Below are positions 3,941-29,232 of a stretch of 64,000 nucleotides of DNA, one piece after another. The translations under genes and the position numbers were made by a program. The stretch comes from an uncultured Paracoccaceae bacterium. Lineage in GTDB: Bacteria; Pseudomonadota; Alphaproteobacteria; Rhodobacterales; Rhodobacteraceae. The DNA is taken from NCBI GenBank assembly GCA_951812305.1, contig CATOSB010000012.1:81591-145590 (forward strand). Reading direction: 5' to 3'. Positions within the stretch are counted from its first letter, which is position 1; each line of letters begins with the position of its first letter. A model generated the notes under the pieces. It ran no database searches. It saw only the letters and a list, made by a program, of their open reading frames with translations, and was not told the DNA's origin.

Positions 3941-4876
3941 CTATATCTGGTATTCGACCTGCCTGATTGTTTCCGGCACGGTTATGGGTCCCATTTTAAC
4001 TTTGGTTTTCCCGAGCATATAGGCTGCGACACACGAGATGAGGTGTACGAATGCGTTGGCAGGCGATCTGTGTCGAGTGTGTTCCAGTCCCATGCTGGTT
4101 TTCAACTTATCGAACAGAGTTTCGATGATGAACCGCCTTCGCAACAGGATTTTGTTCAGGATTGGCAGGAGATAGTTTTTCATGTTGCGGCGAATGCCGG
4201 TGACGAGGTGGAGCCCACGCTGCCAGAGCCGTTGGAAGAGGGATTTGGAGATATAGCCCTTATCAGCAAATATTTTGCCTTCGAGGCCCGCGATCATGGC
4301 TTCAAACGGCTTTCGATCATCGACATTACCTGCCGTGATTTTGACGGCCATGATCTCCCCCTTGTTGTTGATGATTAGATGCAGTTTGAAGCCAAAGAAC
4401 CAGCCCATTGTGCTGCGACCGCGCTTTGCCAGCCCCTTGAAGACCTTGTTTCGATTAATGCGGGCATTGTGGCAGACCGCGAGCTTAGTGCTGTCGGCAA
4501 AATAGACGCCGGTTTTTTCACCGCTGAAGCAGTGCAGCAGTATGCAAAACGGCACCATTAATCTTGGCATGAGGCTGACAAACCGACCATAGCTCGGGAG
4601 GGTGCCAAAGCAGTCACGGTATTTCTGCTCAACGCCATAAATCCAATAATGTTTGAAGTCCTTGAACGGCGACAAGTGAAACAAGACCATGATGAACAGG
4701 CTCTCCCCCAGGGTCAGCTTGCCGGCGCGAAGCCTCTGACGACCCGAGGGGATCAACCGGTGGCGCTCCCAGTCCTCGTAGGTTTTTGCAAAATCATCGA
4801 GACAGACAAAAAGTGCGGTGTTAGTGATCGACATGAGTGGCGGTCCATATTGTGTCGCTTTTGAACCTTGAATCAT
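3941..4876 (-). CDS. IS982 family transposase
   Basis: The 311-residue transposase has the IS982 signature block [16 protein letters not shown] (the first catalytic Asp sits in ADST), followed by the Lys/Arg-rich [20 protein letters not shown]. The second Asp lies in [13 protein letters not shown] and the Glu in [14 protein letters not shown], so a DDE triad is present. The length is at the usual size for the family (about 290-310). The gene reads leftward with its stop 20 bp from the left end, and diverges from the passenger gene. It appears intact and differs from copy 2 by one visible residue (FGTLP versus FGNLP). Confidence 0.9.
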
Positions 4877-4962
4877 GGGGCAACGTACCTGGAAACCCCT
4901 CTCACCCCATACTAATCACGGGGGCATTCAGGCTGGTCAACACGGGGCAAAAGGTGCGCGCC

Positions 4963-5403
4963 ATGGAGAACAACTTCCCAATCAACGAAGATCTCGCTTA
5001 TGAGAAGATCCGGGACCTCATGTTCGACATGATGGAAGAGGACCCCAACCGTCTCTACGCCCTCACGGATAAGCTCAATGAACTGGCTGCGCTCCCTAAA
5101 AGAACCATGACACTTGTGCTCGATCTGATGGCCGCCACTCCCTTTCAGGTGATCATCCCGAAACACGTACGGAAAAATGACCCTGATACATTCAAAGCGG
5201 ATCACGAAACCGTTTCAAATGTTCTATTTCTTGGAGAGTTTGGCGGAATTGCCGTTGAACTGGAGCCAAATGAGGCTTTGAGAGAACCGAGGATCATTTC
5301 CATAACAATGGTGGAAATCCCTCATCGCAACCCTCTGCGAAAAAGGGTCAACGAGTATCGTAAAAAACGAATCAAAAAACTACGAAAAAATTCTGTCGAG
5401 TAG
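4963..5403 (+). CDS. passenger protein of the IS982-like element, 146 aa
   Basis: The frame starts MENNFPINEDLAYEKI and ends with a very basic tail (RKKRIKKLRKNSVE). The N-terminal 60 residues are acidic and helical, the middle is hydrophobic (TLVLDLMAATPFQVIIP), and the last 25 are Lys/Arg-rich. No signal peptide or known domain is recognised. The ORF track extends it upstream to 4837, but that part overlaps the transposase start and the ATG at 4963 is more plausible. The gene lies wholly within the element and is transcribed away from the transposase. In the second copy an IS66 interrupts it, so it is not needed for maintenance of that copy. Confidence 0.7.
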   Translation: MENNFPINEDLAYEKIRDLMFDMMEEDPNRLYALTDKLNELAALPKRTMTLVLDLMAATPFQVIIPKHVRKNDPDTFKADHETVSNVLFLGEFGGIAVELEPNEALREPRIISITMVEIPHRNPLRKRVNEYRKKRIKKLRKNSVE

Positions 5404-7904: not shown

Positions 7905-8208
7905 TGCGATCTTTCTCCAGTTTTTCGAGCCGTCGGCGTATGGCCGCGGCGCTGCGGCCGAGTGTCCTGCCGACCTCTTCATGGGATTGTTCGGCCTTGA
8001 GCATGCTGAACATGCGGTCGTCCTCGTCGTCGGACCAGTTTTGGCCGTGGCGGTCGGGTTTGCCCGGTTTGTCCGCCGGCGGCGGGTCCGACGTGTTTCC
8101 GGCGGACCCGGAGATATCCTCTTCGTCCGCCCGGTCCGGGTCGCTGCCGGCGGGCGCGCCGGTCTCGCCCGTATCGTCCGGTCGCCCATGGTCCGGCGCG
8201 GGGGTCAC
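7855..8208 (-). CDS. small acidic protein with a helix-turn-helix-like C-terminus
   Basis: The 117-residue product starts with about 55 disordered acidic/Pro residues. It then has a Myb/SANT-like helical segment beginning NWSDDEDDRMFSMLKAEQ and continuing through VGRTLGRSAAAIRRRLEKL, the classic 'many-are-alike' recognition-helix pattern seen in GcrA- and Myb-like DNA-binding folds. It ends in a basic tail. The start overlaps the stop of the coupling-protein gene by ATGA. A regulatory or DNA-tethering role is possible. The fold assignment is inference. Confidence 0.6.
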   Translation of the reverse strand: MTPAPDHGRPDDTGETGAPAGSDPDRADEEDISGSAGNTSDPPPADKPGKPDRHGQNWSDDEDDRMFSMLKAEQSHEEVGRTLGRSAAAIRRRLEKLEKDRNAKPAEKTDARAGDEA

Positions 8209-10937
8209 AGGCTCCGGGGGGTGTCTGCGGCATCGCCCGGCTCGTCGGACCCGGTAACGGGCGGAGGCCCTTGTCCGGGCGCGTCGATTGCCTGTGTCTC
8301 TTCATCGGGCGCGACGGGTGGCGTCACATCCGGGTTTGGTTCGATGTCCGACGGACCGGTATCGGAGGTTTCGTCCGGTATCGGCGTTTTGCGGCCGCGC
8401 CCCTCAGTTGCGCCGGTCTCCTGTGCGGCGGCGGTATCCCGGCCCGTGTCCAGCAATCCCGGAACGGCCTCGATCACCCAGGGTTCGCCGGAGCGCAGCC
8501 GGGCGATGATACGCGCCTCGTCCCCGGACAGTGCGAGACTCTCCCCTGCCTCACCGGGAAGGGGGGTGGCATCGTCTCGCCCTTTCTGTCCCTCAACCCC
8601 GGGATATGGCCCGACCGCTGTGGTGTCCTTGCCACCGGGGCCTTGCCCTTCGTCCGCCCTGCGGGTCTCCAGGTCATAGTCGATATCCGGCTCCACCTCG
8701 GGGAAGCCGTCCTCGGGGGCGCTCTCGCCCGGGGATTGTGTGCCCTCTTTTTCTGGCCCCTGCGCCTGATCGGCCGGGCCATGACTCTGCGCTCCGGCCT
8801 CCGCTGCCTTCGCGCCCTTCACCGCCCCGGTTGCCGACGTGGCGACTTCCGGGTTTGTTTTGTCTTTCACGCCATCGGCGGCCTCTGCCTCCCCGATCCG
8901 TTTCATGACCTGCGCATGCCGTTTCGTAGCGGCGAGATGCTCTGCCACGTCTTCGGGCGATCTGACCCGGTCCTTCATGTCCGTCCGGGTGAACCAGATG
9001 GCTTTCGTGGCGAGGATCGGTTTGGACTTGCGGGTGAATATCAGCGCGCCATGCACGGGCAGCTGGCCCAGCGTTGCGGCCGACATGAGCGGCACCTCGC
9101 GGAGTTGTTCCTGCTCGCTGGTTCCGAGCGTGCCGGTCATGGGGGCGAGCGGCGCGGCCGAACTCGACGATCCCTGCGTCCGGGTGCGGATGGTGTGTTT
9201 ACCGAGCATGGTGACGATATCGCTGGCGGTGCGCGATGAGCCGACGGCACTGACCACCCTGGCCTCGCAGCTGTCGAACCAGGCGGAGGCCCCGGCATCG
9301 CCGCCCCAGGCCTCCACGAGCTGCCCGTAGTTCTGATAGATCAGCATGAGATGCATGCCGATGGAGCGCCCGGCATCGCGGACATTGGTCAGTATGTCCA
9401 TGCCACCGAGTACGCGGGCCTCATCGATGAGAAAGAGGCGGCGGGCTTTCGGGCGGTCGGGTTGCTCGGTGAGCCCGGCGATGACGAACATCGCGCCGAA
9501 CAAGAGGCGCGGGAAGGAGGAGAAGTCCCGGGCCGCAAGTTCGGGCAGGTTGATGAAGATGTCGGACTTTGGGCCGAGCGCGGCGATATGGTCGGTCGGG
9601 GACTTCCGCGACTGACCGAAGGCCTGGATATCGGGGAAGCGAACGAAGGCGAGCTTGTTGGAAATGCCCTTGACCACGCCCGGGAAGGTGCGGTCGTCGA
9701 GCGCCGCGATCCCGGTCATCTCGTCATTGATATAGGGCAGATCGGGGTAGGTGGCCGCGATGTCCTGCGCCTCTTCAATCACGTCCTCCCGCTTGCGGTT
9801 GATGAATCTCGAAATCTCCCCCGCGACATTGTTGTTCTTTCTCTCGACGTAATAGGCCATGAGCGCGGCGAAGAGGCTGACGGACATATCGTGGAAATAT
9901 TCGCTGTTCTCGGAGGACCGCGCATGGGCGGGCATCAGCGTTTTGGCCATGGTGTAGTAGACCGAAGGGGTGTCGGGTGCGAGCGGCGCGATGGCCTTGA
10001 AGGGATCGAACCCGGTTTCGGCATCGATGACGATGGCCCGATACCCCATGGCTTCGCGTGCCTCGCGGGTGCGCGCGTAGAGGTCGCCTTTGGGATCTAC
10101 GACGACGAGCGGGCCGTCATAGGTGAGAATGTTGGGAATGACGATGCCGGCGGTCTTGTACCCGGCCGAGGGGGCCAGCACCAGGGCATGGCCGTTGCCC
10201 GCGCCCGGGTCGATGGTGACGAGATGGCCGGTCCCCTGCCGCCCCCAGCTGCGGGGCCGTCCCGGATCGAAGCCGGGAGTCTCTCCGATGGGATCGGAAT
10301 GTTCGCCGAGCACGATGCCGCCGGGATGGGTAAATCGCTGCCGGATCTCGCCGCGACTGGCCCATGTGGCCTGAGGCAGACCGTCTTTATGTCCGCTCCC
10401 CGCCGGGCCGTCGCGGGTGGCGTCGTCAATGGCCCTGATCAGCCCTTTCCAGAGCCGGTAGCCCACGCCTGCGGTGATGGTCGCCATGATCACAAACCCG
10501 GCGAAGGCAAAGAGGACCGCTGTTTCTGCTGTGGAATAGTTGAAGAGGATGGTCCGGAACCAGGGCCATGTATTGTCGAAGACCCATGTGGCCTGCCAGG
10601 CGCCGTCGATCTTCCAGGGCCGGGTGGCATAGAGCGCGATGCCGGGAAACCAGAGACACCACCAGAGCGGGGACCTGCGCCCGAGACCGAGGGCGATCCC
10701 GTGGCAGATCATGGCGGGCAGGAGCGCGGCGAGCAGGAGGCCGGGATCGTAGGACCAGGCGGGTGTGGTGGCGCGCATATAGAGCGCGACGTTGACGATA
10801 AACCCGAGCCATGTGGCAAGGAGCAGGGCGAGCGGCAGGAGGCCGACAGGCGAGACGAGCGTGTCCCGCGCACGGGTCAGTCCCCGCCGGATGGCGGCAG
10901 CTGTCCTTTGTCTGCGGGAGATGTTTCGGTCGGTCAT
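8205..10937 (-). CDS. traG: type IV secretion coupling protein, TraG/VirD4 family
   Basis: The 910-residue protein has four predicted membrane segments in the first 160 residues (around 28-54, 66-86, 91-104 and 139-158). A RecA-like ATPase follows, with the Walker A variant APSAGYKTAG at 254-263 and Walker B LFLIDEA at 501-507. DPKGDLY at about 281-287 is the conserved strand after Walker A in TraG/VirD4 proteins. From about residue 650 a long Glu/Pro/Gly-rich, low-complexity tail runs to the end, which may receive relaxosome partners. Coupling proteins deliver relaxase-DNA to the type IV channel at the inner membrane. The start overlaps the traB-like stop by ATGA. Walker A lacks the usual GxGK spacing but keeps Lys-Thr. 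Confidence 0.9.
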   Translation of the reverse strand: MTDRNISRRQRTAAAIRRGLTRARDTLVSPVGLLPLALLLATWLGFIVNVALYMRATTPAWSYDPGLLLAALLPAMICHGIALGLGRRSPLWWCLWFPGIALYATRPWKIDGAWQATWVFDNTWPWFRTILFNYSTAETAVLFAFAGFVIMATITAGVGYRLWKGLIRAIDDATRDGPAGSGHKDGLPQATWASRGEIRQRFTHPGGIVLGEHSDPIGETPGFDPGRPRSWGRQGTGHLVTIDPGAGNGHALVLAPSAGYKTAGIVIPNILTYDGPLVVVDPKGDLYARTREAREAMGYRAIVIDAETGFDPFKAIAPLAPDTPSVYYTMAKTLMPAHARSSENSEYFHDMSVSLFAALMAYYVERKNNNVAGEISRFINRKREDVIEEAQDIAATYPDLPYINDEMTGIAALDDRTFPGVVKGISNKLAFVRFPDIQAFGQSRKSPTDHIAALGPKSDIFINLPELAARDFSSFPRLLFGAMFVIAGLTEQPDRPKARRLFLIDEARVLGGMDILTNVRDAGRSIGMHLMLIYQNYGQLVEAWGGDAGASAWFDSCEARVVSAVGSSRTASDIVTMLGKHTIRTRTQGSSSSAAPLAPMTGTLGTSEQEQLREVPLMSAATLGQLPVHGALIFTRKSKPILATKAIWFTRTDMKDRVRSPEDVAEHLAATKRHAQVMKRIGEAEAADGVKDKTNPEVATSATGAVKGAKAAEAGAQSHGPADQAQGPEKEGTQSPGESAPEDGFPEVEPDIDYDLETRRADEGQGPGGKDTTAVGPYPGVEGQKGRDDATPLPGEAGESLALSGDEARIIARLRSGEPWVIEAVPGLLDTGRDTAAAQETGATEGRGRKTPIPDETSDTGPSDIEPNPDVTPPVAPDEETQAIDAPGQGPPPVTGSDEPGDAADTPRSL

Positions 10938-12118
10938 TGGGACTGGCCTTTTGTGATGGGTCGGGCGGGTGTGGACAGAAGGAGCGCCGTCCGACCGGTT
11001 TCGGCGTGGTGGACCTGCCGTCCGGAGAGTCCGGCCATGGCGCGGGCGGCTTTCCGGCGCAGAACGGAAACGGGCAGCGATCCGAGCACGGGCAGCGATG
11101 CGACGACCGGCCCGAAGGCCCCATCGTTGGAGAGCACGACCACGGGCCGGGGATCTTCGGTAAGGAGAGACACCCAGGCCCAGGGCAGGAAGGCTTCGAG
11201 ACAGATCAGCACATCGAAGCCCGGGTCATGGGCAGCGGAGGTCCCGTCGCCCTCCATCAGCGTCCAGGTGCCGGTGACGCCGGGAATACCGAAGCCTGCG
11301 CGGGTGATCGTGGCATCGCCTGTGCGCGCGCATGTTTCCGGGTCCAGCCGCCGGAGCGCACTGCGGCGGACGCCCTCATATGGTTCGGAGACGCCGATAA
11401 AGAGGGTGAGGTTCCGGGTCTTTGCAGCGCGGCACCAGAAGGCGCGTGCGTCGGCGTCTTCGGCCCGGAAGATGTTTTCGCCCAAGCTTGCTGTGCCGCC
11501 CTCGGGAAGGCTGTCCCTGAGCGCGATCCAGCGGGCGCGTTCGGTGATGGTGACGGGTTCGGGGATCTCCCGCCACAGGGACGTGGCCCCTGCGCCGGGC
11601 GCACCGGGTAAGATATTCCAGACCGCAAGTGTCGCGGCAATGCCGGTAAAGAGCACCGTCCGGATCCTTCGGCTCCGCAGGGTCTCCGCGACGGTCAGCG
11701 CCAGCGCGGTGACGATCAGGCCGGCAAATCCCGCGCCTGGCAGAAGGGCGGCCAGCGGCAGGAGCGGCGAGGCGGGGAAGACCGGGAGTGCCAGAAGCGC
11801 CAGGGTCACGGGCAGGATGCCAATCCCTGCGGCAAGCAGCGAGAGCGCGACCACGATCCCTGCGGCTCCGGCCCAGGCAACTCCCGGCCCCATGCCAACC
11901 CCGACAAGACCAGTGGCCGAAGCGATGGCGGGCCAGAGCATGAAGCCGGCCATGGCGGCGGCACGCAGCGCGGCCAGTCCGGACCAGGCCGCGACGAGCA
12001 ATGGCAGCAGCGCCAGCGCGAAGGGCACGGGCGGCAGAAAGAAGGCCGCAAAGGCGAGCGCCGCGCTGCCGGGGACGAAGAGAAACCTGTGCCACCCGCC
12101 TGCCTTCAGGTGTCTCAT
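10934..12118 (-). CDS. traB: TraB-like conjugal transfer membrane protein (nitrilase-fold type)
   Basis: The real start is the ATG at 12118 (MRHLKAGGWHR), which overlaps the primase stop by ATGA; the ORF-track extension is a shadow. The 394-residue protein has six or so hydrophobic segments in the first 190 residues. The C-terminal half resembles the carbon-nitrogen hydrolase/Lnt fold (TLFIGVSEPYEG, VLICLEAFLPWAW, PRPVVVLSNDGAFG). TraB of Ti-type plasmids has this architecture and enhances conjugation. The Cys in ICLEAF sits where the nitrilase nucleophile is expected. Assignment rests on architecture and operon position rather than clear identity. Confidence 0.7.
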   Translation of the reverse strand: MRHLKAGGWHRFLFVPGSAALAFAAFFLPPVPFALALLPLLVAAWSGLAALRAAAMAGFMLWPAIASATGLVGVGMGPGVAWAGAAGIVVALSLLAAGIGILPVTLALLALPVFPASPLLPLAALLPGAGFAGLIVTALALTVAETLRSRRIRTVLFTGIAATLAVWNILPGAPGAGATSLWREIPEPVTITERARWIALRDSLPEGGTASLGENIFRAEDADARAFWCRAAKTRNLTLFIGVSEPYEGVRRSALRRLDPETCARTGDATITRAGFGIPGVTGTWTLMEGDGTSAAHDPGFDVLICLEAFLPWAWVSLLTEDPRPVVVLSNDGAFGPVVASLPVLGSLPVSVLRRKAARAMAGLSGRQVHHAETGRTALLLSTPARPITKGQSQ

Positions 12119-13173
12119 GCGCCCGCCCTCCGGGCCGAGGCGATGGCGCCGAGCAGGGCGAAAGCCCCCCGGGTCATCAGCGTGTCGTTGAGATCGCGTT
12201 TCGAGCCTTCCGGTTCGGGGGCCTCGGCGATGCGGAGTCGGCAGCCCCGGTCGAGATGAGGGGCCAGCGCCGCCCGAAACGCACGCCCCGCCGGGCTGCC
12301 CGGCGCATCCCGGTCGGGCGCAAGGATCACCACGCGGTCCACCGGGACCGGCGCGCGCTTCCATCCCGAGACCCCGAACACCGCCCAGGTCTCAAGCCCC
12401 GTTACGGATCGGAGTGTCAGGGCGGTCTCGGGGCCTTCGGCGATCACCAGTGGCGCGTCCTTCTCAACACTGCCCGCCGCCGGAAACCGGGCCGGTGCCC
12501 CGCCGATTGTGCCGAAGGCGGGCTTGGGGATTTCCACGGCGGCCTTGCGCCCGTCCGCATCGATCAGGATGCGCTGGCCGCCGACCGCATGCCCGTTCCC
12601 ATCCATGGCCCAGACCACAAGCGCGGGCCGGTCGGGATCGCGGACGCGCAGGCGCGGGATCGGCGGCAGCCAGGCCAGGCCGGTTTCGGGCAGGTCCCGA
12701 ATGCCACGCCCGGCGAGATAGACCTCTGCCGGACTGCCCCGCACCGGACGGGTCCATCCCTCTATCGTCTGCACCAGCGCCCGGAGGTAGGCGCGGTCCC
12801 CGGTATCTCTGTCTGCGGGCTTCCGTCTGTCCGGCATTGGGGCGTTGCCCAGCCAGCGCGACGCCTCTGCGAGCACACGCGGAAAGTCGCTTCGCGCGCT
12901 TGTGAGGCCACAGAACACCATCGCGGCAAGATCGAGAGTATCGCCGCCTTCCCCGGCGGAATGATCGCACCAGAGCCCGCGCCGATCACCCTTCATCCTC
13001 ATCGAGAGCGCGTCGTTTTCCTTCGCCCGCCAGTCAGAGGCTCCGGGACGGACCGGCTCGCCGAAGGCCCTGCGAAAGAGATCTTCCGCCCGGGCCTCGA
13101 GCGCGGCCCTGACCTTCGCCGCATCCGGGCCTGCCGGCTTGCCCGTGCCGGTATGGGTCTCACTCGACGGCAT
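12115..13173 (-). CDS. TOPRIM-domain DNA primase/helicase-like protein
   Basis: The ATG at 13173 (MPSSETHTG) overlaps the upstream gene by 14 bp. The 352-residue product has an N-terminal segment with WCDHSAGEGGDTLDL (about residues 75-90), the zinc-free CHC2-like entry of plasmid primase-type proteins. A TOPRIM fold follows, with its Glu in VIAEGPETAL (about 235-244) and its DxD in ILAPDRDAPG (about 275-284). Proteins of this layout are common on alphaproteobacterial plasmids beside traB and traG. The expected role is primer synthesis on the transferred or replicating strand, but no polymerase activity can be shown from sequence. Confidence 0.8.
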   Translation of the reverse strand: MPSSETHTGTGKPAGPDAAKVRAALEARAEDLFRRAFGEPVRPGASDWRAKENDALSMRMKGDRRGLWCDHSAGEGGDTLDLAAMVFCGLTSARSDFPRVLAEASRWLGNAPMPDRRKPADRDTGDRAYLRALVQTIEGWTRPVRGSPAEVYLAGRGIRDLPETGLAWLPPIPRLRVRDPDRPALVVWAMDGNGHAVGGQRILIDADGRKAAVEIPKPAFGTIGGAPARFPAAGSVEKDAPLVIAEGPETALTLRSVTGLETWAVFGVSGWKRAPVPVDRVVILAPDRDAPGSPAGRAFRAALAPHLDRGCRLRIAEAPEPEGSKRDLNDTLMTRGAFALLGAIASARRAGA

Positions 13174-14017
13174 AGGGATCAAGGCTCCAGTTGCGGACAG
13201 AGGGGGACAGCGTTCCGGCGCGTTCCGCGCCGCGCATGGCAGCACCGACATCGCGCAGCCTGACCGCGCCGAAGGCGAGAACGCTTGTGTCGGGGATGGG
13301 CGCGGCAGGCCGGGGGTTGTGGAGGGCCAGAGAGACCGGCTGGCCCGCCAGAACCGCGAGCACGGTGTCGGGGGTTGTGAGCGCCCGGTTGCCGGCCAGC
13401 CCGCGATAGGCGGAGTGTCCCCGCTGCGGTCCATGGGTCAGCGGCAGGGCGGCCCAGATGCCCGCGAGGCAATTGCCATAGCGGGGATGGTTGGCGGGCG
13501 GACCGGGGGTGCCGCATTCCGCGATCAGAAGCTCTGCGAGACGATCCTGAAGTGCTGCATCAAACCGGGTGGCGCGCGCGATCCCGTGGGTTCTGACCAG
13601 GCGGGCGAGCGTGTCGCGGATGAACTGGTAGCCCCCGGCAGCGGTGGAGGGTGCGCCTTTGGCCCGGACCCGGGTCTGCCAGTCGAGCACGTCGCCCACA
13701 GACATGGCGGTGAGCGGTTTCGGAGGGGCGCGCGGGATGCGGCGTTCGTAATCGTCATAGCCGCGCGGGGCCTCGAGCGCGCGGATGAAGCCCAGAAGAT
13801 CGGTGGTGGTGCGGGTCTCTGCCAGGATGGTGTCCAGAGGGGTCAGGCAGAGAACAAGCAGGAGGGTGAGGCCCTGCCCCGCACCGCGCAAAAGCCTGAC
13901 GGCGCGGCGCGGGAAGGTCAATGCCGCCGGGTCTTTGGTGCGGCGCTTTGCATGTCGCCGCTGTTGCCCGGTGGTCCGAAGATACCCATCGGCGGTCGTG
14001 CTGCGTGAGAGGCTCAT
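13160..14017 (-). CDS. lysozyme-like transglycosylase/muramidase of the transfer operon
   Basis: The start at 14017 (MSLSRSTTADG) overlaps the upstream stop by ATGA. The 285-residue protein has a basic N-terminus, a membrane or signal segment (about residues 45-67, AGQGLTLLLVLCLTPLDTILA) and a lysozyme-like domain. In that domain, LLGFIRALEAPRGYDDYERR carries the likely catalytic Glu and STAAGGYQFIRDTLARL is the muramidase AAGxYQ motif. This domain is paralogous to the N-terminal half of the next upstream gene. Such enzymes (VirB1-like role) open peptidoglycan locally for the conjugation channel. The last 60 residues are not recognised. Confidence 0.75.
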   Translation of the reverse strand: MSLSRSTTADGYLRTTGQQRRHAKRRTKDPAALTFPRRAVRLLRGAGQGLTLLLVLCLTPLDTILAETRTTTDLLGFIRALEAPRGYDDYERRIPRAPPKPLTAMSVGDVLDWQTRVRAKGAPSTAAGGYQFIRDTLARLVRTHGIARATRFDAALQDRLAELLIAECGTPGPPANHPRYGNCLAGIWAALPLTHGPQRGHSAYRGLAGNRALTTPDTVLAVLAGQPVSLALHNPRPAAPIPDTSVLAFGAVRLRDVGAAMRGAERAGTLSPSVRNWSLDPYAVE

Positions 14018-15369
14018 CTGACGATCCTTCCGATGGCGGGGGGCAGGAGCCACGCGAGCGCGGCGGCGGTGATCTCCAGCAGCAGGAATGACATCGCGGC
14101 AAAAAGCGGGTTGGTCTCTGAGCGGACCGTCCAGGCCATCTCGAGCGTGGTCCCGGTGAGGAGCATGACCACGAGCAGGGAGAGCCCCGCCGAGACCGGC
14201 AGCAGCGTGGCACTGCGCGCTTTTGCGGTGGTCTCCTTCAGCCCGCCGAAGCCAAGGGCGAAGAGGCCGGCGGCGGCGGCCAGCAACAGTCGGGCGCTCC
14301 AGTAGACGATAAGTCCCGGAAGAAGGGCGAAGGGTAAAAGGTTCAGCGCGGCGATTACGATCACGCCGACCTGTATCGCTATGGGCCAGATTCCCAACCC
14401 TTCGAAGAGCGAGAAGATGAGCGCCGTGCGGCCCGACACGAAGGCGTTGAGCGAAAACGCCGTGCCGGTGCCCGGGCTTCCGGCCAGTTGGCGTACAACC
14501 GCACCGATGAAGTCGATAAACGCGCCCGGCATGGTGAGCAGCGCAAGGCAGAGACAGACGGTCAGAAGCCGGAAGGCGATGCCTTTGTAGAGAACACCGG
14601 GATTGCCGGAGAGGATCCAGTTCCCTGCCCGGAGAACCAGATCGATGACGAAGAGGCCGAGCAGCAGGCCGATGGCCCAGATGCCGATCTCCGCGAGCAC
14701 CTTCTGCGAGGCCTGGGCGATCTCCTCCAGCACCTGGTCCCAGTGGAAGCCGAAGGCCCTGCCGCCCCGGATCGCGCCGATTTCCCCTCCGAGGCTGGCC
14801 ACATCCCGCTCGCAGGCGAGAACCGCCCTGTAGCTCGGGGCGGTGATGAGGGCGTGGTTCCCGGCAACCCCTTCGTAGATCGAGTGCCCCGCGCCGGCAC
14901 CGCTGACACGCGGCAGCGCGGCCCAGACCCCGGCAATCCTGTTGGCGGTCGCGGGTGAGGTATCGCCCGCCCGGTATCCGGTGGCGCGCAACAGGTGCCG
15001 CCCGAGCCGGTCCTGTGTCGCCGCGTCGAAGGTCTCCGAGGGCCGCACCAGACCCTGATCGACGAGACGCTGAAGGGTGGGGCGGATGATCTGGTACTTT
15101 CCGGCAGCCGAAGAGATCGAGCCGCCGCGCACCGTGTTGCGCTGCCAGGCCAGCACCTCGCCCACGCTCATCGTCGTGACCGCGCGGGGCGGGCGCACCT
15201 TCACCCGGTAATTGACGGTGTCATAGCTCCCGCGCGCTTCCAGCCGCCCGACCAGATCAAGCACCGTGTCCTCGGTGCAGGCAGGCGCAGGCAGGGCCAT
15301 AAAGAGACAGGCGAGACACAGCAGGGCCGAAAGCAGCCTGGACCGCAGAGGATATGCATCAAACCCCAT
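14014..15369 (-). CDS. lysozyme domain fused to a TrbL/VirB6-like membrane domain
   Basis: The ATG at 15369 (MGFDAYPLRSRLL) is followed by a signal peptide ending near ALPAPAC; the ORF-track extension to 15528 crosses brnT. Residues about 33-190 form a lysozyme-like domain (LVGRLEARGSYDTVNYRV, SSAAGKYQIIRPTLQRL). From about residue 225 to the end there are six or seven strongly hydrophobic helices (AIGLLLGLFVIDLVLRAG; LLTVCLCLALLTMPG; LLPFALLPGLIVYWSARLLLAAAAG; LLVVMLLTGTTLEMAW), as in TrbL/VirB6 channel proteins. One polypeptide therefore combines the VirB1-type and VirB6-type roles. It heads the minus-strand transfer operon and diverges from brnT. Confidence 0.75.
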   Translation of the reverse strand: MGFDAYPLRSRLLSALLCLACLFMALPAPACTEDTVLDLVGRLEARGSYDTVNYRVKVRPPRAVTTMSVGEVLAWQRNTVRGGSISSAAGKYQIIRPTLQRLVDQGLVRPSETFDAATQDRLGRHLLRATGYRAGDTSPATANRIAGVWAALPRVSGAGAGHSIYEGVAGNHALITAPSYRAVLACERDVASLGGEIGAIRGGRAFGFHWDQVLEEIAQASQKVLAEIGIWAIGLLLGLFVIDLVLRAGNWILSGNPGVLYKGIAFRLLTVCLCLALLTMPGAFIDFIGAVVRQLAGSPGTGTAFSLNAFVSGRTALIFSLFEGLGIWPIAIQVGVIVIAALNLLPFALLPGLIVYWSARLLLAAAAGLFALGFGGLKETTAKARSATLLPVSAGLSLLVVMLLTGTTLEMAWTVRSETNPLFAAMSFLLLEITAAALAWLLPPAIGRIVR

Positions 15370-15430: not shown

Positions 15431-15697
15431 ATGGATTTTGAATGGGATACGGCAAAGCGTCTGCGTAATTTGGGCAAACACGGGATCGACTTCGCGGCGA
15501 TAGGGTCTTTCGCATGGGAAATTGCCATAACCAGGGAGGACAGGCGTGGTGACTATGGCGAACGAAGATTCATCTCGATCAGTCTCATAGGTAACCGCCA
15601 CCATGTCGCTGTCTGGAGCCTGCGCGGTGATGCCCGCCGCCTTATTTCCCTTCGAAAAGCGAACAAACGAGAGGTTAAAGCCTATGTCGCAGAATAA
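15431..15697 (+). CDS. brnT: BrnT family toxin (ribonuclease)
   Basis: The 88-residue protein shows the BrnT pattern: MDFEWDTAKRLRNLGKHGIDF at the start, DYGERRFISISLIG in the middle, and the basic C-terminal segment RRLISLRKANKREVKAY. BrnT toxins have a RelE-like fold and cleave RNA, and BrnA neutralises them. The gene overlaps brnA by 14 bp in the normal toxin-first order for this family. It starts just 4 bp after a palindromic operator. All family-conserved blocks appear intact, so the module is probably functional and may stabilise this plasmid-like region. Confidence 0.92.
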   Translation: MDFEWDTAKRLRNLGKHGIDFAAIGSFAWEIAITREDRRGDYGERRFISISLIGNRHHVAVWSLRGDARRLISLRKANKREVKAYVAE

Positions 15698-15908
15698 ATC
15701 GTATATTGATGAAAACGGCGATGCCCTTGAACTGGATGAGGCGTGGTTTGCCAAAGCCCGGCGCGGACGGCCACCGTTGCCACCCGAGAAACGCAAGAAG
15801 TCGGTGCATATGATGCTGGATCCTGACATTCTGGCGCGCCTTAAATCGGAGGGCCGTGGCTGGCAGACGCGTGCCAACGCGCTTTTGCGCGCGGCTTTGG
15901 GCCTGTAG
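15684..15908 (+). CDS. brnA: BrnA family antitoxin
   Basis: The ATG at 15684 (MSQNKSYIDENG) lies within the brnT end. The 74-residue product has a short acidic toxin-binding start (LDEAWFAKARRGRPPLP), then a ribbon-helix-helix domain: the strand KKSVHMMLDPDILARLK followed by the helix region GRGWQTRANALLRAALGL. This matches the BrnA layout. BrnA dimers bind DNA at the brnTA promoter. The stop is followed within a few bases by the end of the trbI fragment on the other strand. Confidence 0.92.
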   Translation: MSQNKSYIDENGDALELDEAWFAKARRGRPPLPPEKRKKSVHMMLDPDILARLKSEGRGWQTRANALLRAALGL

Positions 15909-15912: not shown

Positions 15913-16374
15913 TCACGGGATCACCGCCGGGAGGGATATGTCGTCTTCGACGAGGACGTTCATGAGTGCGCCGGCCTTGACGCGGAAGCGGGGGCCACGC
16001 TCAAGCAACTGCCCGAGATAGTCTTCTGCCACGCGTCCGGTTGCGCTGCCGGTGGCCTGGGCGACGAGTGCGCCGAGATCGCTTTCTTCCCGGTCTTTCG
16101 TTCCTGTGAGGATCTGTGTTGCATTGCCGGCGAGATCAAACAGCACGGCGGCGCCGAGCGCGGTCAGCAGGCCGGTCGTGCGCTGCCCGCGCACGCCGGA
16201 GGCGCCGTCGGCCCCGAGGGTGGCGAATTTGTCCAGATCATGGCGCGTCCCGTCGGGCATTCGGAGATCGGTCCAGGCGAAGAAGAGCCGTCGCTGCCCG
16301 GTTCGGGTGTCCGAGCCATAGGTGCCGACAAGCGCCGCGCCGCGCGGGATGAGCACGCGCGTTCCGGTGTCGCT
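15913..16374 (-). pseudogene. trbI: TrbI/VirB10 C-terminal fragment
   Basis: The frame reads DTGTRVLIPRGAALVGTYGSD, then RLFFAWTDLRMPDGT and the AAVLFDLAGNATQIL region, characteristic of the C-terminal periplasmic barrel domain of TrbI/VirB10. The N-terminal two thirds are missing. At about 16375 the sequence switches to the AAA ATPase remnant with no insertion element at the joint. A complete VirB10 bridges the two membranes in the type IV channel; this fragment cannot. Its loss implies that the conjugation machinery in this window is incomplete. Confidence 0.8.
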
Positions 16375-16803: not shown

Positions 16804-18404
16804 GTAACTCCCAAGCACCCCCCACGTTTGAGTGTTATTGTCAGTTTTATGGTGAGTCGAATTTGCCATTTTGCGCGTGTTTTTTTTCTTTCTTGTCTGA
16901 ATTCTGTGGCGCCGGGTTGATTTCTCTGAATCAGTGGTGGGATGGATCAGGTTGCCGCCCTTGAACAACTTCTCGCCACGGCTCTGCGTCGGATCGCTGA
17001 GCTTGAAGCTGCGTTGGCGAGCATGGCGGAAGAGATCACGGACCTGCGCCGACAGTTGGCCAAGAACAGCAGCAATAGCAGCAAGCCCCCTTCAAGTGAT
17101 GGCCTGAAGAAGCCAGCCCCGCGCAGCCTGCGTGGCAAATCCGGAAAGAAAAGTGGCGGCCAAGTTGGCCACCGGGGCGACACCCTGCGCCAGACGTCAA
17201 CACCCGACTTTGTCGAACGGCATGAGGCGACGCATTGCAGCGCCTGTCAGAGCGCCCTGACGGCGGAGATGGTGAAAGGGATCGAGAAGCGTCAGGTGTT
17301 CGACTTGCCTGCGCCACGCCTGGAGGTCACCGAGCATCAGGCGGCGGTTTATTGTTGCGACCATTGTCGAGCCACGACGACGGCTGGCTTTCCCGATGGC
17401 GTGGCCGCGCATGTGCAATATGGCACGCGCATGCGGGCAGTGGCGGTCTATTGCAATGTTCAGCAGCTGATACCCGAGGATCGGGTCTGCCAGCTTATGC
17501 GCGACCTGTTTGGGGCCACCAGCTTGTGCGCGGCCAGCGTGACCAACTGGACGCGCGGCGCGGCAAATAAGATGGGTGTCGTGGTTGAACACATTCTCGC
17601 CCGGCTTGCCGAAGGCGGCGTTCGGCATCTGGACGAGACCGGACTTCGTGTTGCCGGCAAGCTGCACTGGCTGCACACGATCTGCGATACCGCCTTCACC
17701 CATTACCGCATCAGCGCCAAACGCGGTGCTGTTCCAACCTTCCTGACCGGCGGGACGATCATTCATGATCACTGGAAACCCTACTACGCCCATATGAGCG
17801 GAGTGGACGCCCACGCCCTCTGCGGGGCGCATCACTTGCGCGAACTCAAGGCCATCGAAGAGATCGAAAAAGAGCCTTGGGCGACGGAGATGAGCGCAGT
17901 GCTTCATAGCGCCAATCAGCTCAGATGCGCGGCTCAGGATCAAGGCGAGACCGAACTCCCGGAACTGGTTCGCCAGGGTATAGTCACCAGATACATGGCG
18001 ATCCTCGCCAAGGGGCTCGCCTTCCACGAACGCCGGCCCCCGCTGGCCAAAAGCCCCGGCACCCGCGGCCGAAAAGCCAGGCGGCCAGGCCACAACCTGC
18101 TCCTCCGCCTGCGTGACTACCGCGATGACGTTTTGCGATTCATCGCCGACTTCGCGGTCCCATTCACAAACAATCAGGCCGAACAGGACCTGCGCATGAT
18201 GAAGCTGCGCATGAAAATCTCGGGCACCTTCCGCACCCTCGAGGGCGCGCGGGTCTTCGCCGACATCAGGTCCGTCATCTCGACGGCCAGAAAACACCGG
18301 TTCAACATCCTGGAAATCCTGACCCTGTCACCACCTCAGATCATCGCACGGCTCTGACGGAACAAAACCCCGCAACCCTATCGGACAGGGTGCTTGGGAG
18401 TTAC
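16804..18404 (+). mobile_element. IS66 family element, copy 1 (full length, 1601 bp)
   Basis: The element begins GTAACTCCCAAGCACCC and ends with its inverted copy GGGTGCTTGGGAGTTAC. It has a single transposase gene, as in the ISBst12-type branch of the IS66 family, without tnpA/tnpB. The 8-bp target duplication CTTCTGAC lies at 16796-16803 on the left. On the right, that duplication appears only after copy 2 (19922-19929), so copies 1 and 2 occupy one target site. Confidence 0.93.
16942..18357 (+). CDS. tnpC: IS66 family transposase (TnpC type), copy 1
   Basis: The 471-residue transposase starts with a leucine-zipper-like helix (LEQLLATALRRIAELEAAL), followed by the Ser/Pro linker NSSNSSKPPSSDG typical of IS66. 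A zinc-binding block is next (HCSACQSAL and CCDHCRATT). The DDE core has Asp in VRHLDETGLRV, Asp in IIHDHWKPYY and Glu in FTNNQAEQDLRMMKLRMKISGTF. The length matches single-ORF IS66 members. This copy carries the variant HERRPPLAK, shared with copy 3. The 366-aa antisense frame over every copy is a shadow. Confidence 0.95.
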   Translation: MDQVAALEQLLATALRRIAELEAALASMAEEITDLRRQLAKNSSNSSKPPSSDGLKKPAPRSLRGKSGKKSGGQVGHRGDTLRQTSTPDFVERHEATHCSACQSALTAEMVKGIEKRQVFDLPAPRLEVTEHQAAVYCCDHCRATTTAGFPDGVAAHVQYGTRMRAVAVYCNVQQLIPEDRVCQLMRDLFGATSLCAASVTNWTRGAANKMGVVVEHILARLAEGGVRHLDETGLRVAGKLHWLHTICDTAFTHYRISAKRGAVPTFLTGGTIIHDHWKPYYAHMSGVDAHALCGAHHLRELKAIEEIEKEPWATEMSAVLHSANQLRCAAQDQGETELPELVRQGIVTRYMAILAKGLAFHERRPPLAKSPGTRGRKARRPGHNLLLRLRDYRDDVLRFIADFAVPFTNNQAEQDLRMMKLRMKISGTFRTLEGARVFADIRSVISTARKHRFNILEILTLSPPQIIARL

Positions 18405-19921
18405 CTTTCTTGTCTGAATTCTGTGGCGCCGGGTTGATTTCTCTGAATCAGTGGTGGGATGGATCAGGTTGCCGCCCTTGAACAACTTCTCGCCACGGCT
18501 CTGCGTCGGATCGCTGAGCTTGAAGCTGCGTTGGCGAGCATGGCGGAAGAGATCACGGACCTGCGCCGACAGTTGGCCAAGAACAGCAGCAATAGCAGCA
18601 AGCCCCCTTCAAGTGATGGCCTGAAGAAGCCAGCCCCGCGCAGCCTGCGTGGCAAATCCGGAAAGAAAAGTGGCGGCCAAGTTGGCCACCGGGGCGACAC
18701 CCTGCGCCAGACGTCAACACCCGACTTTGTCGAACGGCATGAGGCGACGCATTGCAGCGCCTGTCAGAGCGCCCTGACGGCGGAGATGGTGAAAGGGATC
18801 GAGAAGCGTCAGGTGTTCGACTTGCCTGCGCCACGCCTGGAGGTCACCGAGCATCAGGCGGCGGTTTATTGTTGCGACCATTGTCGAGCCACGACGACGG
18901 CTGGCTTTCCCGATGGCGTGGCCGCGCATGTGCAATATGGCACGCGCATGCGGGCAGTGGCGGTCTATTGCAATGTTCAGCAGCTGATACCCGAGGATCG
19001 GGTCTGCCAGCTTATGCGCGACCTGTTTGGGGCCACCAGCTTGTGCGCGGCCAGCGTGACCAACTGGACGCGCGGCGCGGCAAATAAGATGGGTGTCGTG
19101 GTTGAACACATTCTCGCCCGGCTTGCCGAAGGCGGCGTTCGGCATCTGGACGAGACCGGACTTCGTGTTGCCGGCAAGCTGCACTGGCTGCACACGATCT
19201 GCGATACCGCCTTCACCCATTACCGCATCAGCGCCAAACGCGGTGCTGTTCCAACCTTCCTGACCGGCGGGACGATCATTCATGATCACTGGAAACCCTA
19301 CTACGCCCATATGAGCGGAGTGGACGCCCACGTCCTCTGCGGGGCGCATCACTTGCGCGAACTCAAGGCCATCGAAGAGATCGAAAAAGAGCCTTGGGCG
19401 ACGGAGATGAGCGCAGTGCTTCATAGCGCCAATCAGCTCAGATGCGCGGCTCAGGATCAAGGCGAGACCGAACTCCCGGAACTGGTTCGCCAGGGTATAG
19501 TCACCAGATACATGGCGATCCTCGCCAAGGGGCTCGCCTTCCACGAACGCCAGCCCCCGCTGGCCAAAAGCCCCGGCACCCGCGGCCGAAAAGCCAGGCG
19601 GCCAGGCCACAACCTGCTCCTCCGCCTGCGTGACTACCGCGATGACGTTTTGCGATTCATCGCCGACTTCGCGGTCCCATTCACAAACAATCAGGCCGAA
19701 CAGGACCTGCGCATGATGAAGCTGCGCATGAAAATCTCGGGCACCTTCCGCACCCTCGAGGGCGCGCGGGTCTTCGCCGACATCAGGTCCGTCATCTCGA
19801 CGGCCAGAAAACACCGGTTCAACATCCTGGAAATCCTGACCCTGTCACCACCTCAGATCATCGCACGGCTCTGACGGAACAAAACCCCGCAACCCTATCG
19901 GACAGGGTGCTTGGGAGTTAC
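18405..19921 (+). mobile_element. IS66 family element, copy 2 (lacks left 84 bp)
   Basis: The sequence starts abruptly at element position 85 (CTTTCTTGTCTGAATTC), immediately after the right end of copy 1. It runs to a normal right end, followed by the CTTCTGAC target duplication. The left terminal repeat is absent. The copy differs from copy 1 at marker bases (VLCGAHH; HERQPPLAK), so it is not a simple tandem duplication of copy 1. Confidence 0.92.
18459..19874 (+). CDS. tnpC: IS66 family transposase, copy 2
   Basis: This is the same 471-residue protein as copy 1, with two visible differences (Ala to Val in HVLCGAHH, and Arg to Gln in HERQPPLAK). The reading frame and DDE residues are intact. 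Only 54 bp of the native 138-bp leader remain, and the right end of copy 1 lies directly upstream, so expression would depend on a truncated leader or on read-through. Confidence 0.93.
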   Translation: MDQVAALEQLLATALRRIAELEAALASMAEEITDLRRQLAKNSSNSSKPPSSDGLKKPAPRSLRGKSGKKSGGQVGHRGDTLRQTSTPDFVERHEATHCSACQSALTAEMVKGIEKRQVFDLPAPRLEVTEHQAAVYCCDHCRATTTAGFPDGVAAHVQYGTRMRAVAVYCNVQQLIPEDRVCQLMRDLFGATSLCAASVTNWTRGAANKMGVVVEHILARLAEGGVRHLDETGLRVAGKLHWLHTICDTAFTHYRISAKRGAVPTFLTGGTIIHDHWKPYYAHMSGVDAHVLCGAHHLRELKAIEEIEKEPWATEMSAVLHSANQLRCAAQDQGETELPELVRQGIVTRYMAILAKGLAFHERQPPLAKSPGTRGRKARRPGHNLLLRLRDYRDDVLRFIADFAVPFTNNQAEQDLRMMKLRMKISGTFRTLEGARVFADIRSVISTARKHRFNILEILTLSPPQIIARL

Positions 19922-20403
19922 CTTCTGACTTTCTATAGTACGCCCGATAAACTGAATCCTCAACAACTTGCTCTAATTCCGCGCCTGTAAAACCCACAGT
20001 AGCTTCGACGATTCTATCGATATCAAGTTGGTCAGTCTTAATCTTCCGTTCAGCCAAATGGATTTTCAGGATTTCTTTTCTTGCCTCAATGCCTGGGCAA
20101 CCCAAAAAAAACTTTGCATCTAAACGTCCGGCACGAGTCAGCTCAGGTGGAAGATCCTCAAAGCGATTAGCTGTTGCCAAAACGAACACCTGTGCTTCGT
20201 GCTCTTGCAGCCAGGTCAAAAGTGACGCCCGCATATTGAGATCTACGCTATGAGTTGCATCATTCGTCTGAGCTACTGCTTTGTCAATTTCGTCTATCCA
20301 AAGGATGCACGGCGCTACACTTTCGATCATTTGCAAAGATGCGCGTAGCTTTCGTTCACTTTCTCCGAAGTACTTGTTTTTTAACCTGAGTTCTGGATAA
20401 GCG

Positions 20404-21339
20404 CTATATCTGGTATTCGACCTGCCTGATTGTTTCCGGCACGGTTATGGGTCCCATTTTAACTTTGGTTTTCCCGAGCATATAGGCTGCGACACACGAG
20501 ATGAGGTGTACGAATGCGTTGGCAGGCGATCTGTGTCGAGTGTGTTCCAGTCCCATGCTGGTTTTCAACTTATCGAACAGAGTTTCGATGATGAACCGCC
20601 TTCGCAACAGGATTTTGTTCAGGATTGGCAGGAGATAGTTTTTCATGTTGCGGCGAATGCCGGTGACGAGGTGGAGCCCACGCTGCCAGAGCCGTTGGAA
20701 GAGGGATTTGGAGATATAGCCCTTATCAGCAAATATTTTGCCTTCGAGGCCCGCGATCATGGCTTCAAACGGCTTTCGATCATCGACATTACCTGCCGTG
20801 ATTTTGACGGCCATGATCTCCCCCTTGTTGTTGATGATTAGATGCAGTTTGAAGCCAAAGAACCAGCCCATTGTGCTGCGACCGCGCTTTGCCAGCCCCT
20901 TGAAGACCTTGTTTCGATTAATGCGGGCATTGTGGCAGACCGCGAGCTTAGTGCTGTCGGCAAAATAGACGCCGGTTTTTTCACCGCTGAAGCAGTGCAG
21001 CAGTATGCAAAACGGCACCATTAATCTTGGCATGAGGCTGACAAACCGACCATAGCTCGGGAGGTTGCCAAAGCAGTCACGGTATTTCTGCTCAACGCCA
21101 TAAATCCAATAATGTTTGAAGTCCTTGAACGGCGACAAGTGAAACAAGACCATGATGAACAGGCTCTCCCCCAGGGTCAGCTTGCCGGCGCGAAGCCTCT
21201 GACGACCCGAGGGGATCAACCGGTGGCGCTCCCAGTCCTCGTAGGTTTTTGCAAAATCATCGAGACAGACAAAAAGTGCGGTGTTAGTGATCGACATGAG
21301 TGGCGGTCCATATTGTGTCGCTTTTGAACCTTGAATCAT
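20404..21339 (-). CDS. IS982 family transposase, copy 2
   Basis: The 311-residue protein is identical to copy 1 except for one Asn in FGNLPSYGR. All catalytic residues are intact. Its orientation relative to the passenger gene is the same as in copy 1. Confidence 0.9.
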
Positions 21340-21684
21340 GGGGCAACGTACCTGGAAACCCCTCTCACCCCATACTAATCACGGGGGCATTCAGGCTGGT
21401 CAACACGGGGCAAAAGGTGCGCGCCATGGAGAACAACTTCCCAATCAACGAAGATCTCGCTTATGAGAAGATCCGGGACCTCATGTTCGACATGATGGAA
21501 GAGGACCCCAACCGTTTCTACGCCCTCACGGATAAGCTCAATGAACTGGCTGCGCTCCCTAAAAGAACCATGACACTTGTGCTCGATCTGATGGCTGCCA
21601 CTCCCTTTCAGGTGATCATCCCGAAACACGTACGGAAAAATGACCCTGATACATTCAAAGCAGATCACGAAACCGTTTCAAATG

Positions 21685-23285
21685 GTAACTCCCAAGCACC
21701 CTGTCCGATAGGGTTGCGGGGTTTTGTTCCGTCAGAGCCGTGCGATGATCTGAGGTGGTGACAGGGTCAGGATTTCCAGGATGTTGAACCGGTGTTTTCT
21801 GGCCGTCGAGATGACGGACCTGATGTCGGCGAAGACCCGCGCGCCCTCGAGGGTGCGGAAGGTGCCCGAGATTTTCATGCGCAGCTTCATCATGCGCAGG
21901 TCCTGTTCGGCCTGATTGTTTGTGAATGGGACCGCGAAGTCGGCGATGAATCGCAAAACGTCATCGCGGTAGTCACGCAGGCGGAGGAGCAGGTTGTGGC
22001 CTGGCCGCCTGGCTTTTCGGCCGCGGGTGCCGGGGCTTTTGGCCAGCGGGGGCCGGCGTTCGTGGAAGGCGAGCCCCTTGGCGAGGATCGCCATGTATCT
22101 GGTGACTATACCCTGGCGAACCAGTTCCGGGAGTTCGGTCTCGCCTTGATCCTGAGCCGCGCATCTGAGCTGATTGGCGCTATGAAGCACTGCGCTCATC
22201 TCCGTCGCCCAAGGCTCTTTTTCGATCTCTTCGATGGCCTTGAGTTCGCGCAAGTGATGCGCCCCGCAGAGGGCGTGGGCGTCCACTCCGCTCATATGGG
22301 CGTAGTAGGGTTTCCAGTGATCATGAATGATCGTCCCGCCGGTCAGGAAGGTTGGAACAGCACCGCGTTTGGCGCTGATGCGGTAATGGGTGAAGGCGGT
22401 ATCGCAGATCGTGTGCAGCCAGTGCAGCTTGCCGGCAACACGAAGTCCGGTCTCGTCCAGATGCCGAACGCCGCCTTCGGCAAGCCGGGCGAGAATGTGT
22501 TCAACCACGACACCCATCTTATTTGCCGCGCCGCGCGTCCAGTTGGTCACGCTGGCCGCGCACAAGCTGGTGGCCCCAAACAGGTCGCGCATAAGCTGGC
22601 AGACCCGATCCTCGGGTATCAGCTGCTGAACATTGCAATAGACCGCCACTGCCCGCATGCGCGTGCCATATTGCACATGCGCGGCCACGCCATCGGGAAA
22701 GCCAGCCGTCGTCGTGGCTCGACAATGGTCGCAACAATAAACCGCCGCCTGATGCTCGGTGACCTCCAGGCGTGGCGCAGGCAAGTCGAACACCTGACGC
22801 TTCTCGATCCCTTTCACCATCTCCGCCGTCAGGGCGCTCTGACAGGCGCTGCAATGCGTCGCCTCATGCCGTTCGACAAAGTCGGGTGTTGACGTCTGGC
22901 GCAGGGTGTCGCCCCGGTGGCCAACTTGGCCGCCACTTTTCTTTCCGGATTTGCCACGCAGGCTGCGCGGGGCTGGCTTCTTCAGGCCATCACTTGAAGG
23001 GGGCTTGCTGCTATTGCTGCTGTTCTTGGCCAACTGTCGGCGCAGGTCCGTGATCTCTTCCGCCATGCTCGCCAACGCAGCTTCAAGCTCAGCGATCCGA
23101 CGCAGAGCCGTGGCGAGAAGTTGTTCAAGGGCGGCAACCTGATCCATCCCACCACTGATTCAGAGAAATCAACCCGGCGCCACAGAATTCAGACAAGAAA
23201 GAAAAAAAACACGCGCAAAATGGCAAATTCGACTCACCATAAAACTGACAATAACACTCAAACGTGGGGGGTGCTTGGGAGTTAC
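21685..23285 (-). mobile_element. IS66 family element, copy 3 (1601 bp)
   Basis: Both ends are complete. The 8-bp target duplication TTCAAATG lies at 21677-21684 and 23286-23293. The element is inserted in the passenger gene of the IS982-like element, so it arrived after that element had moved into the AAA gene. Confidence 0.95.
21732..23147 (-). CDS. tnpC: IS66 family transposase, copy 3
   Basis: This intact 471-residue transposase carries the HERRPPLAK variant like copy 1. It reads in the opposite direction to copies 1 and 2. Confidence 0.95.
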   Translation of the reverse strand: MDQVAALEQLLATALRRIAELEAALASMAEEITDLRRQLAKNSSNSSKPPSSDGLKKPAPRSLRGKSGKKSGGQVGHRGDTLRQTSTPDFVERHEATHCSACQSALTAEMVKGIEKRQVFDLPAPRLEVTEHQAAVYCCDHCRATTTAGFPDGVAAHVQYGTRMRAVAVYCNVQQLIPEDRVCQLMRDLFGATSLCAASVTNWTRGAANKMGVVVEHILARLAEGGVRHLDETGLRVAGKLHWLHTICDTAFTHYRISAKRGAVPTFLTGGTIIHDHWKPYYAHMSGVDAHALCGAHHLRELKAIEEIEKEPWATEMSAVLHSANQLRCAAQDQGETELPELVRQGIVTRYMAILAKGLAFHERRPPLAKSPGTRGRKARRPGHNLLLRLRDYRDDVLRFIADFAVPFTNNQAEQDLRMMKLRMKISGTFRTLEGARVFADIRSVISTARKHRFNILEILTLSPPQIIARL

Positions 23286-23594
23286 TTCAAATGTTCTATT
23301 TCTTGGAGAGTTTGGCGGAATTGCCGTTGAACTGGAGCCAAATGAGGCTTTGAGAGAACCGAGGATCATTTCCATAACAATGGTGGAAATCCCTCATCGC
23401 AACCCTCTGCGAAAAAGGGTCAACGAGTATCGTAAAAAACGAATCAAAAAACTACGAAAAAATTCTGTCGAGTAGTGCACTGGTGACGCCAACGTCTTAT
23501 CCAGAATCGGGGTTTTTTAATGCACCCATATCGAGTCGAATGAGAGGAATGCATATAACCGGACAGCACCCACCAAAGCCCCGCTCATCTTGCA

Positions 23595-23613
23595 GGGGGT
23601 GCTTGGGAGTTAC
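23595..23613. repeat. solitary IS66 terminus at a recombination joint
   Basis: GGGGGTGCTTGGGAGTTAC matches the inverted terminal repeat of the IS66 elements, but no IS66 body follows on either side. On its left is the 5'-truncated AAA gene and on its right the Tn3 transposase fragment. It looks like the scar of an IS66-mediated deletion or of loss of the element by recombination. Confidence 0.75.
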
Positions 23614-24261
23614 CTTGGTTTTAAATTGGCTCCGCGTCTGAAAGCCATCGCGCGCCAGAAACTGGCCCTGCCTGGCACCGGAATGCGAGGGCAACTGCCT
23701 CATTTGCAGCCGACTCTGTCTGGGGCCATCGACTGGGCGGAGATCGAACGGCAATACGACGAGATGGTCAAGTATGCCGCTGCCATGCAGCAGGGCACGG
23801 CAGATCCGGAAGCCATCCTGCGCCGCTTTGCGCGCGCTGATGTGATGCACCCAACCTACAAGGCACTCGCGGAATTAGGTCGCGGGATCAGAACGATCTT
23901 CCTGTGCCGCTATCTGAGGGCCGAGAGTTTCCGCCGGGAAATCCATGAGGGGCTTAATGTGGTCGAGAATTGGAACAGCGCCAACGGGTTTGTGTTCTTC
24001 GGCAAAGGCGGTGAAATCTCCAGCAACCGGATTGCCGATCAGGAGATCTCGGCGCATGCGTTGCACCTGCTTCAGGCGTCGCTAGCCTATGTCAACACGC
24101 GCATGGTGCAATCGGTGCTGTCGGAACCTGAGTGGATCCGCAGATTGTCAGATCGGGATCTGCAGGGGCTGTCCCCACTCTTTTATCTTCACATCAATCC
24201 ATATGGCCGTTTCGATGTTGATCTGGATAAACGGACCGACTTCGAGGCCATGGCCGCATGA
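23614..24261 (+). pseudogene. tnpA: Tn3 family transposase, C-terminal fragment
   Basis: The frame reads [60 protein letters not shown] and [14 protein letters not shown]. These are the conserved C-terminal blocks of Tn3 transposases, with the catalytic Glu in the EGLNVVE region. About 215 of the usual roughly 1000 residues remain. The 5' side is cut by the solitary IS66 terminus. A decayed tyrosine recombinase and an unknown gene follow, consistent with the rest of a Tn3-type transposon. Confidence 0.9.
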
Positions 24262-24345
24262 AACTCTTTACAAAGTGCGTGAACTGTTAAAAGTTTCCAG
24301 ACAAGCCCGCCAGTAAAACAAGGATGATGAGAGGTTCCGAAAGAT

Positions 24346-24710: not shown

Positions 24711-24722
24711 AGGACAGAAAGA

Positions 24723-29143: not shown

Positions 29144-29232
29144 GATTCTGCTTGCGTTCCAGGAGGCGTCCACACACACAGCTTCAGGCCGGTTAGGCCT
29201 ATAGGCAACTCTCCGACGCTCTCCGAATCCAA

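Follow-up and report, generated by a model that had tools for sequence, protein, structure and literature searches.

What does a protein do that carries, in a single chain, a wall-cutting enzyme and a relative of VirB6, a subunit of type IV secretion systems? Such a protein is encoded in a stretch of 64,000 nucleotides (the window) from an uncultured Paracoccaceae bacterium (assembly GCA_951812305.1, contig CATOSB010000012.1, positions 81,591 to 145,590), the initial annotation of which suggested that a fusion of a lysozyme domain and a TrbL/VirB6-like channel domain could couple wall opening and channel formation during assembly of the secretion system. Gram-negative VirB1 proteins are described as soluble (PMC12857230); soluble VirB1 acts first, and the VirB5/VirB6 stalk is inserted later via a VirB6-VirB10 contact, with VirB1-type lysis and VirB6 insertion placed at one site, around VirB10 (PMC12624023). 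A 2025 review notes that the understanding of how VirB1 is regulated is incomplete and that direct observations are lacking for most assembly steps (PMC12624023). It is understood only in part how a conjugation machine opens the wall at one spot while sparing the donor from lysis.

The gene lies on the minus strand at window positions 14014..15369 (including the stop codon) and encodes 451 residues, as initially annotated. The encoded protein starts with a signal-peptide-like stretch (residues 1-30, positions 15280..15369, minus strand; hydrophobic from residue 7 to 33), for which cleavage is predicted, as read by eye, after the terminal APA and before C31. This stretch, which bears out an earlier claim of a signal peptide, is followed by a phage-type, GH104-like lysozyme domain (residues 31-190, 14800..15279, minus strand), and then by a TrbL/VirB6-like membrane domain (residues 207-450, 14020..14751, minus strand).

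An assembly or annotation artefact can be ruled out by the presence of four full-length copies in the source genome and of homologues in three other organisms. In the source genome, the copies at C8:579795, C32:63281 and C10:69510 are 88-91% identical to the window copy (C12), and there are two further copies, one frameshifted (C8:110604) and one truncated (C3:74807). At G000:C3:74213-75193 (L037, L038), an internal deletion has brought the start of trbG up against what is left of the fusion gene, its last third. The full-length homologues outside the source genome all belong to Rhodobacteraceae: an uncultured Rhodobacteraceae MAG (L074), with 88% identity in its best segment, Roseobacter sp. 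HKCCD6576-2 (L075, NZ_WVNW01000006), with 51%, and an Aestuariivita MAG (L076, the same contig as G030), with 48%. Full copies are thus known from four organisms, and the fusion of lysozyme and TrbL, which belongs to conjugation operons of marine bacteria, is rare: of 397 genomes of the family, three (G000, G030 and G342) encode a canonical TrbL belonging to this operon type, and two of these carry the fusion; a sample of 385 genomes from across the class yielded no other full-length fusion. A scan of genome contigs with a single fusion sequence returned nothing, but an alignment query did find homologues. In the plasmid collection, matches were restricted to the lysozyme half, with none to canonical TrbL, and none of 28 PF04610 proteins sampled across the phylum, a small set of best-scoring TrbLs, has more than about 100 residues ahead of the domain.

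The intact copies are also under constraint. Between them, full-length dN/dS ranges from 0.13 to 0.41 (0.13-0.33 for most pairs), with values of 0.06-0.18 for the lysozyme half, except for one near-identical pair with too few changes, and of 0.08-0.41 for the TrbL half; in several comparisons with the Aestuariivita copy, dS is saturated. According to these values, both halves evolve under purifying selection, and the enzyme half is the more constrained. The several copies, the occurrence in other organisms and the selection acting on both halves argue against chance or assembly error.

As judged by its profile matches, the N-terminal half is a GH104-like lysozyme of the phage type, with predicted lytic activity. 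Residues 36-175 match the endolysin family PHROG 90 (E 4e-11), relatives in phages are lysozyme-like proteins and endolysins (E down to 4e-19), and some relatives on plasmids are annotated as glycoside hydrolase family 104. A profile built from 62 family members aligns colinearly with that of lambda lysozyme R (HHalign, probability 97.3, E 7e-11), and in this alignment the column of E44 (codon 15238..15240, minus strand) falls on E19, the catalytic residue of lambda R. Glutamate occupies the column in 54 of the 54 sequences that have it, which agrees with the earlier mention of a likely catalytic Glu; A88, G90, T98, Q119 and W149 are invariant as well. The AAGKYQ motif of the initial annotation is located at residues 88-93. 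Weaker evidence comes from a profile search of PDB, in which lambda lysozyme appears only at E 0.16-0.17, and from a fold search with the full-length fusion model, of moderate confidence, which matched 1am7 at probability 0.66. A fold search with a model of the lysozyme domain alone returned no lysozyme and nothing convincing, and no SLT match was found in the fusion.

The C-terminal half is recognizably TrbL-like, as had been proposed. Residues 211-450 match TIGR02783 (TrbL_P) with E 2e-7, at a score of 30.7 compared to a curated cut-off of 128.85, and the match to Pfam PF04610 (TrbL) is likewise sub-threshold (11.7 vs 25.9 bits). In a profile-profile comparison, HHalign aligns residues 207-450 to the canonical TrbLs from related operons at a probability of 99.4 (E 2.8e-21). 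An AlphaFold2 model of the fusion has moderate confidence (mean pLDDT 71, pTM 0.48), and its top eight Foldseek matches in PDB are all VirB5/VirB6 stalk complexes of R388 containing TrwI/VirB6 (best E 1.2e-4). Searches of PDB sequences with phmmer and the fusion protein, or with the TrbL profile, gave no matches. The "six or seven" helices initially counted are a fair description, since hydropathy shows five to six hydrophobic stretches and the C-terminal half of the model seven helices. The first membrane stretch starts near residue 222; together with the signal-peptide-like stretch ahead of the lysozyme domain, this topology implies that the enzyme should be periplasmic. Three conserved residues of canonical TrbL are replaced in 6/6 fusions, namely E185 (by R or N), R206 (by T) and K219 (by A or S), among them a Glu within a hydrophobic stretch. 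The chain moreover stops directly after the last membrane helix, except in G030, so that the C-terminal tail is lost. In sequence terms, the fused half amounts to another TrbL paralogue, a second copy that has diverged.

Gene order in the operons, mapped with reference proteins, is trbB, trbC, trbG, DUF2726, trbH, trbE, trbJ, trbL, trbF, trbI, fusion, free lysozyme, Toprim, membrane protein and traG. In all four organisms, the fusion has its place after trbI and ahead of the free lysozyme, a conserved slot. For L075, no DUF2726 gene was detected; in G030, a DNA-methyltransferase-like gene is inserted between trbF and trbI, the Toprim gene is displaced, and trbI and the fusion overlap directly. 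In G342, the order trbE-J-L-F-I is followed by the free lysozyme only, with no fusion. A frameshift interrupts trbE in the copies on C8 and C32; in L074 and L075, the operons of which show no visible damage, the gene is a single frame. A canonical TrbL (PF04610 above cut-off) is encoded wherever an operon has survived across this region, which means that the fusion is an additional component. A replacement of TrbL by the fusion was considered and is ruled out by the canonical TrbL that accompanies it in the same operons.

Downstream of the fusion in the window, and also on the minus strand, the free-standing lysozyme paralogue noted at the outset (13160..14017, 45% identity) begins with an ATG that overlaps the fusion stop; the sequence of the overlap, ATGA, suggests translational coupling of the two genes. 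Profile matches and operon mapping identify the next genes as a Toprim-domain protein that is conserved downstream (12115..13434, minus strand) and, beyond it, the coupling protein TraG/VirD4 (8205..10937, minus strand); between them lies a membrane protein of unknown family with the same order downstream in relatives (10934..12364, minus strand, operon mapping). Upstream, the window retains only the 3' part of trbI/virB10 (15913..16374, minus strand; residues 198-350 of a relative by profile match and operon mapping), of which the 5' part is lost. Everything upstream of this trbI end is missing and transposase genes follow, hence no functional system in cis can be presupposed for the window copy.

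Five copies of a 471-aa ORF that by eye resembles an IS66-type transposase, together with IS982-family transposases, crowd the sequence upstream of the broken trbI; the positions concerned are 16942-32468, 3941-5403 and 20404-21761 of the window. Between trbI and the fusion, a BrnT/BrnA toxin-antitoxin pair is encoded on the opposite strand (15431-15908, plus strand; Pfam matches with E 3e-22 and 3e-17), and by eye a BrnT-like ORF is located at the same place in L074 (9574-9855). Upstream of the trb operon in G030 (C68, 70736-80461), and upstream of a free-standing fusion-type lysozyme in Ruegeria (L077, 1826-9962), genes were seen by eye that resemble those of type IV pili or type II secretion, comprising ATPase, inner-membrane and prepilin-like ORFs.

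In a small, midpoint-rooted TrbL tree, the six fusion domains fall into a single clade (100/100), whose sister group is made up of the canonical TrbLs from the same operons; the joint group has a support of 95/93, the TrbL of G342 falls outside, and the fusion branch has a length of 1.77. The sister position and the long branch indicate, at the level of sequence, that trbL was duplicated in this operon lineage and that the fused copy then changed fast. In the lysozyme tree, the fusion lysozymes form a clade of their own (100/99), apart from the free ones, which group with that of G342; the order between the groups is weakly supported. A plain tandem duplication of the free lysozyme, considered as an origin, is not supported, given this separate clade. 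Within the fusion clade lies also the free-standing L077 of Ruegeria, which groups with the Aestuariivita fusion (96/85), so the TrbL half was probably lost in this Ruegeria lineage.

The reading that we favour, with some reserve, is that the fusion serves as a secretion-dedicated, membrane-anchored peptidoglycan lytic subunit, which docks at the base of the secretion system via its VirB6-derived anchor. The signal peptide would export the lysozyme domain to the periplasm, and the TrbL-derived membrane domain would hold the enzyme at the inner-membrane base of the system. Docking might involve contacts inherited from VirB6, e.g., with TrbI/VirB10 or with TrbL itself, which is plausible because the TrbL half was duplicated from the same operon lineage. 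E44 would then cut glycan strands locally, allowing the periplasmic complex to be built, and the role of stalk and channel would stay with canonical TrbL. This lytic-anchor role is supported by the identification of both halves by independent methods, the conserved slot, the invariant predicted catalytic Glu and the purifying selection. Counting against it are the fold search with the lysozyme domain, which gave no lysozyme, and the restriction of full copies to four organisms; moreover, the free lysozyme next door could cut the wall alone, as in the fusion-less G342.

The initial proposal of a fusion that couples wall opening with channel formation stands with respect to both domains, each of which gave the match that the annotation itself had asked for, and to the trb-type type IV secretion setting, but the fused half is not the sole channel subunit, since related operons have an ordinary TrbL, and the decay of the window's own operon means that a working system in cis cannot be assumed. 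It could still be argued that the fusion itself is part of the stalk or channel, either in a VirB6-type pentamer mixed with TrbL or in a second pentamer, so that wall opening and channel are coupled in one particle. As a VirB1-VirB6 hybrid in a mixed stalk, it would restrict peptidoglycan cutting to the place and moment of stalk insertion. The homology of the membrane half to full-length TrbL and the R388 stalk complexes as top fold matches agree with this idea, as does the pentameric state of VirB6 in R388 (PMC12857230). We nevertheless regard it as unlikely: a canonical TrbL is also present, conserved TrbL residues including the Glu in a hydrophobic stretch are replaced, and the fused domain sits on a long branch after the duplication. 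The loss of E185, R206, K219 and the tail, with a canonical TrbL in the same operon, argues for a changed role. The persistence of canonical TrbL and the lost polar residues thus make an anchor or docking role at least as likely as channel formation, and the fusion probably does not replace the channel subunit.

Two further explanations would take the protein out of secretion altogether. That it is a functionless chance joining, persisting in decaying elements, might be suspected from the frameshifted and truncated copies, the frameshifts of trbE in two copies and the broken operon of the window; however, the dN/dS of either half stays well below 1, whether copies or species are compared, the predicted catalytic Glu is invariant and the operons of L074 and L075 look undamaged, all of which makes this very unlikely. 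An equally marginal role, and one that we would hardly expect, is that of a lysis or antagonism protein, i.e., an endolysin with a membrane-active carrier that travels as cargo of the element like a toxin-antitoxin pair. The lysozyme half is indeed of the phage endolysin type and the BrnT/BrnA pair adjoins the fusion in the window, but the fixed place in the trb operon in four organisms, including the overlap of trbI and fusion in G030, and the TrbL homology across the whole membrane half speak for a secretion component, and no immunity gene was seen.

Each half of the preferred lytic anchor is known from established systems. With TrbL/VirB6 (PF04610, TIGR02783; TrwI of R388), the fusion shares homology over the full length of its C-terminal 244 residues, a fold match and the operon, but it differs in the enzyme domain at its N-terminus, in scores that fall short of the curated cut-offs, in the replacement of E185, R206 and K219, and in an operon that has its own canonical TrbL. 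With lambda R and phage endolysins, it has in common a colinear profile, a Glu at the position of E19 and the conserved G-x-YQ motif, whereas its lysozyme is part of a polytopic membrane protein, the gene for which belongs to a secretion operon rather than a phage lysis cassette. Like the lytic transglycosylase VirB1/TrbN, it is a peptidoglycan enzyme of a secretion operon with a presumed function in local wall opening; VirB1, however, is a soluble protein of the SLT type (PMC12857230), compared to a GH104-like domain on a VirB6-like membrane part. Extended VirB6 proteins also carry extra domains, but these are central or C-proximal and of unknown role (PMC12857230), whereas that of the fusion is N-terminal. 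The Gram-positive VirB1 proteins PrgK, TraG and Orf14 resemble it in combining a lytic enzyme with a membrane anchor, but their anchors are not described as VirB6-derived (PMC12857230). The literature searched, with most subscription papers outside its coverage, contained no fusion of VirB6/TrbL with a lysozyme, endolysin or muramidase, and the combination of lysozyme and TrbL is new to the sources of these limited surveys. A natural fusion of a wall-cutting enzyme with a VirB6-type subunit would constitute genetic evidence that both act at one site, and the fused protein would bring wall cutting and stalk insertion to one place.

GH104-like lysozymes were also observed in other settings. On two alphaproteobacterial plasmids (NZ_CP021331, 25323-26267, L151; NZ_CP151764, 299492-300415, L153), free ones are encoded near genes for a MobF relaxase and a coupling protein, placed as if they were a local substitute for VirB1. 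Another is part of a provirus-like cluster near an aroQ-like gene (L129, 9991-15446, G112:C1), together with a P2-type coat protein (PM2/corticovirus-like) and a packaging-type ATPase, and by eye similar genes are present in L132 (G333:C27).
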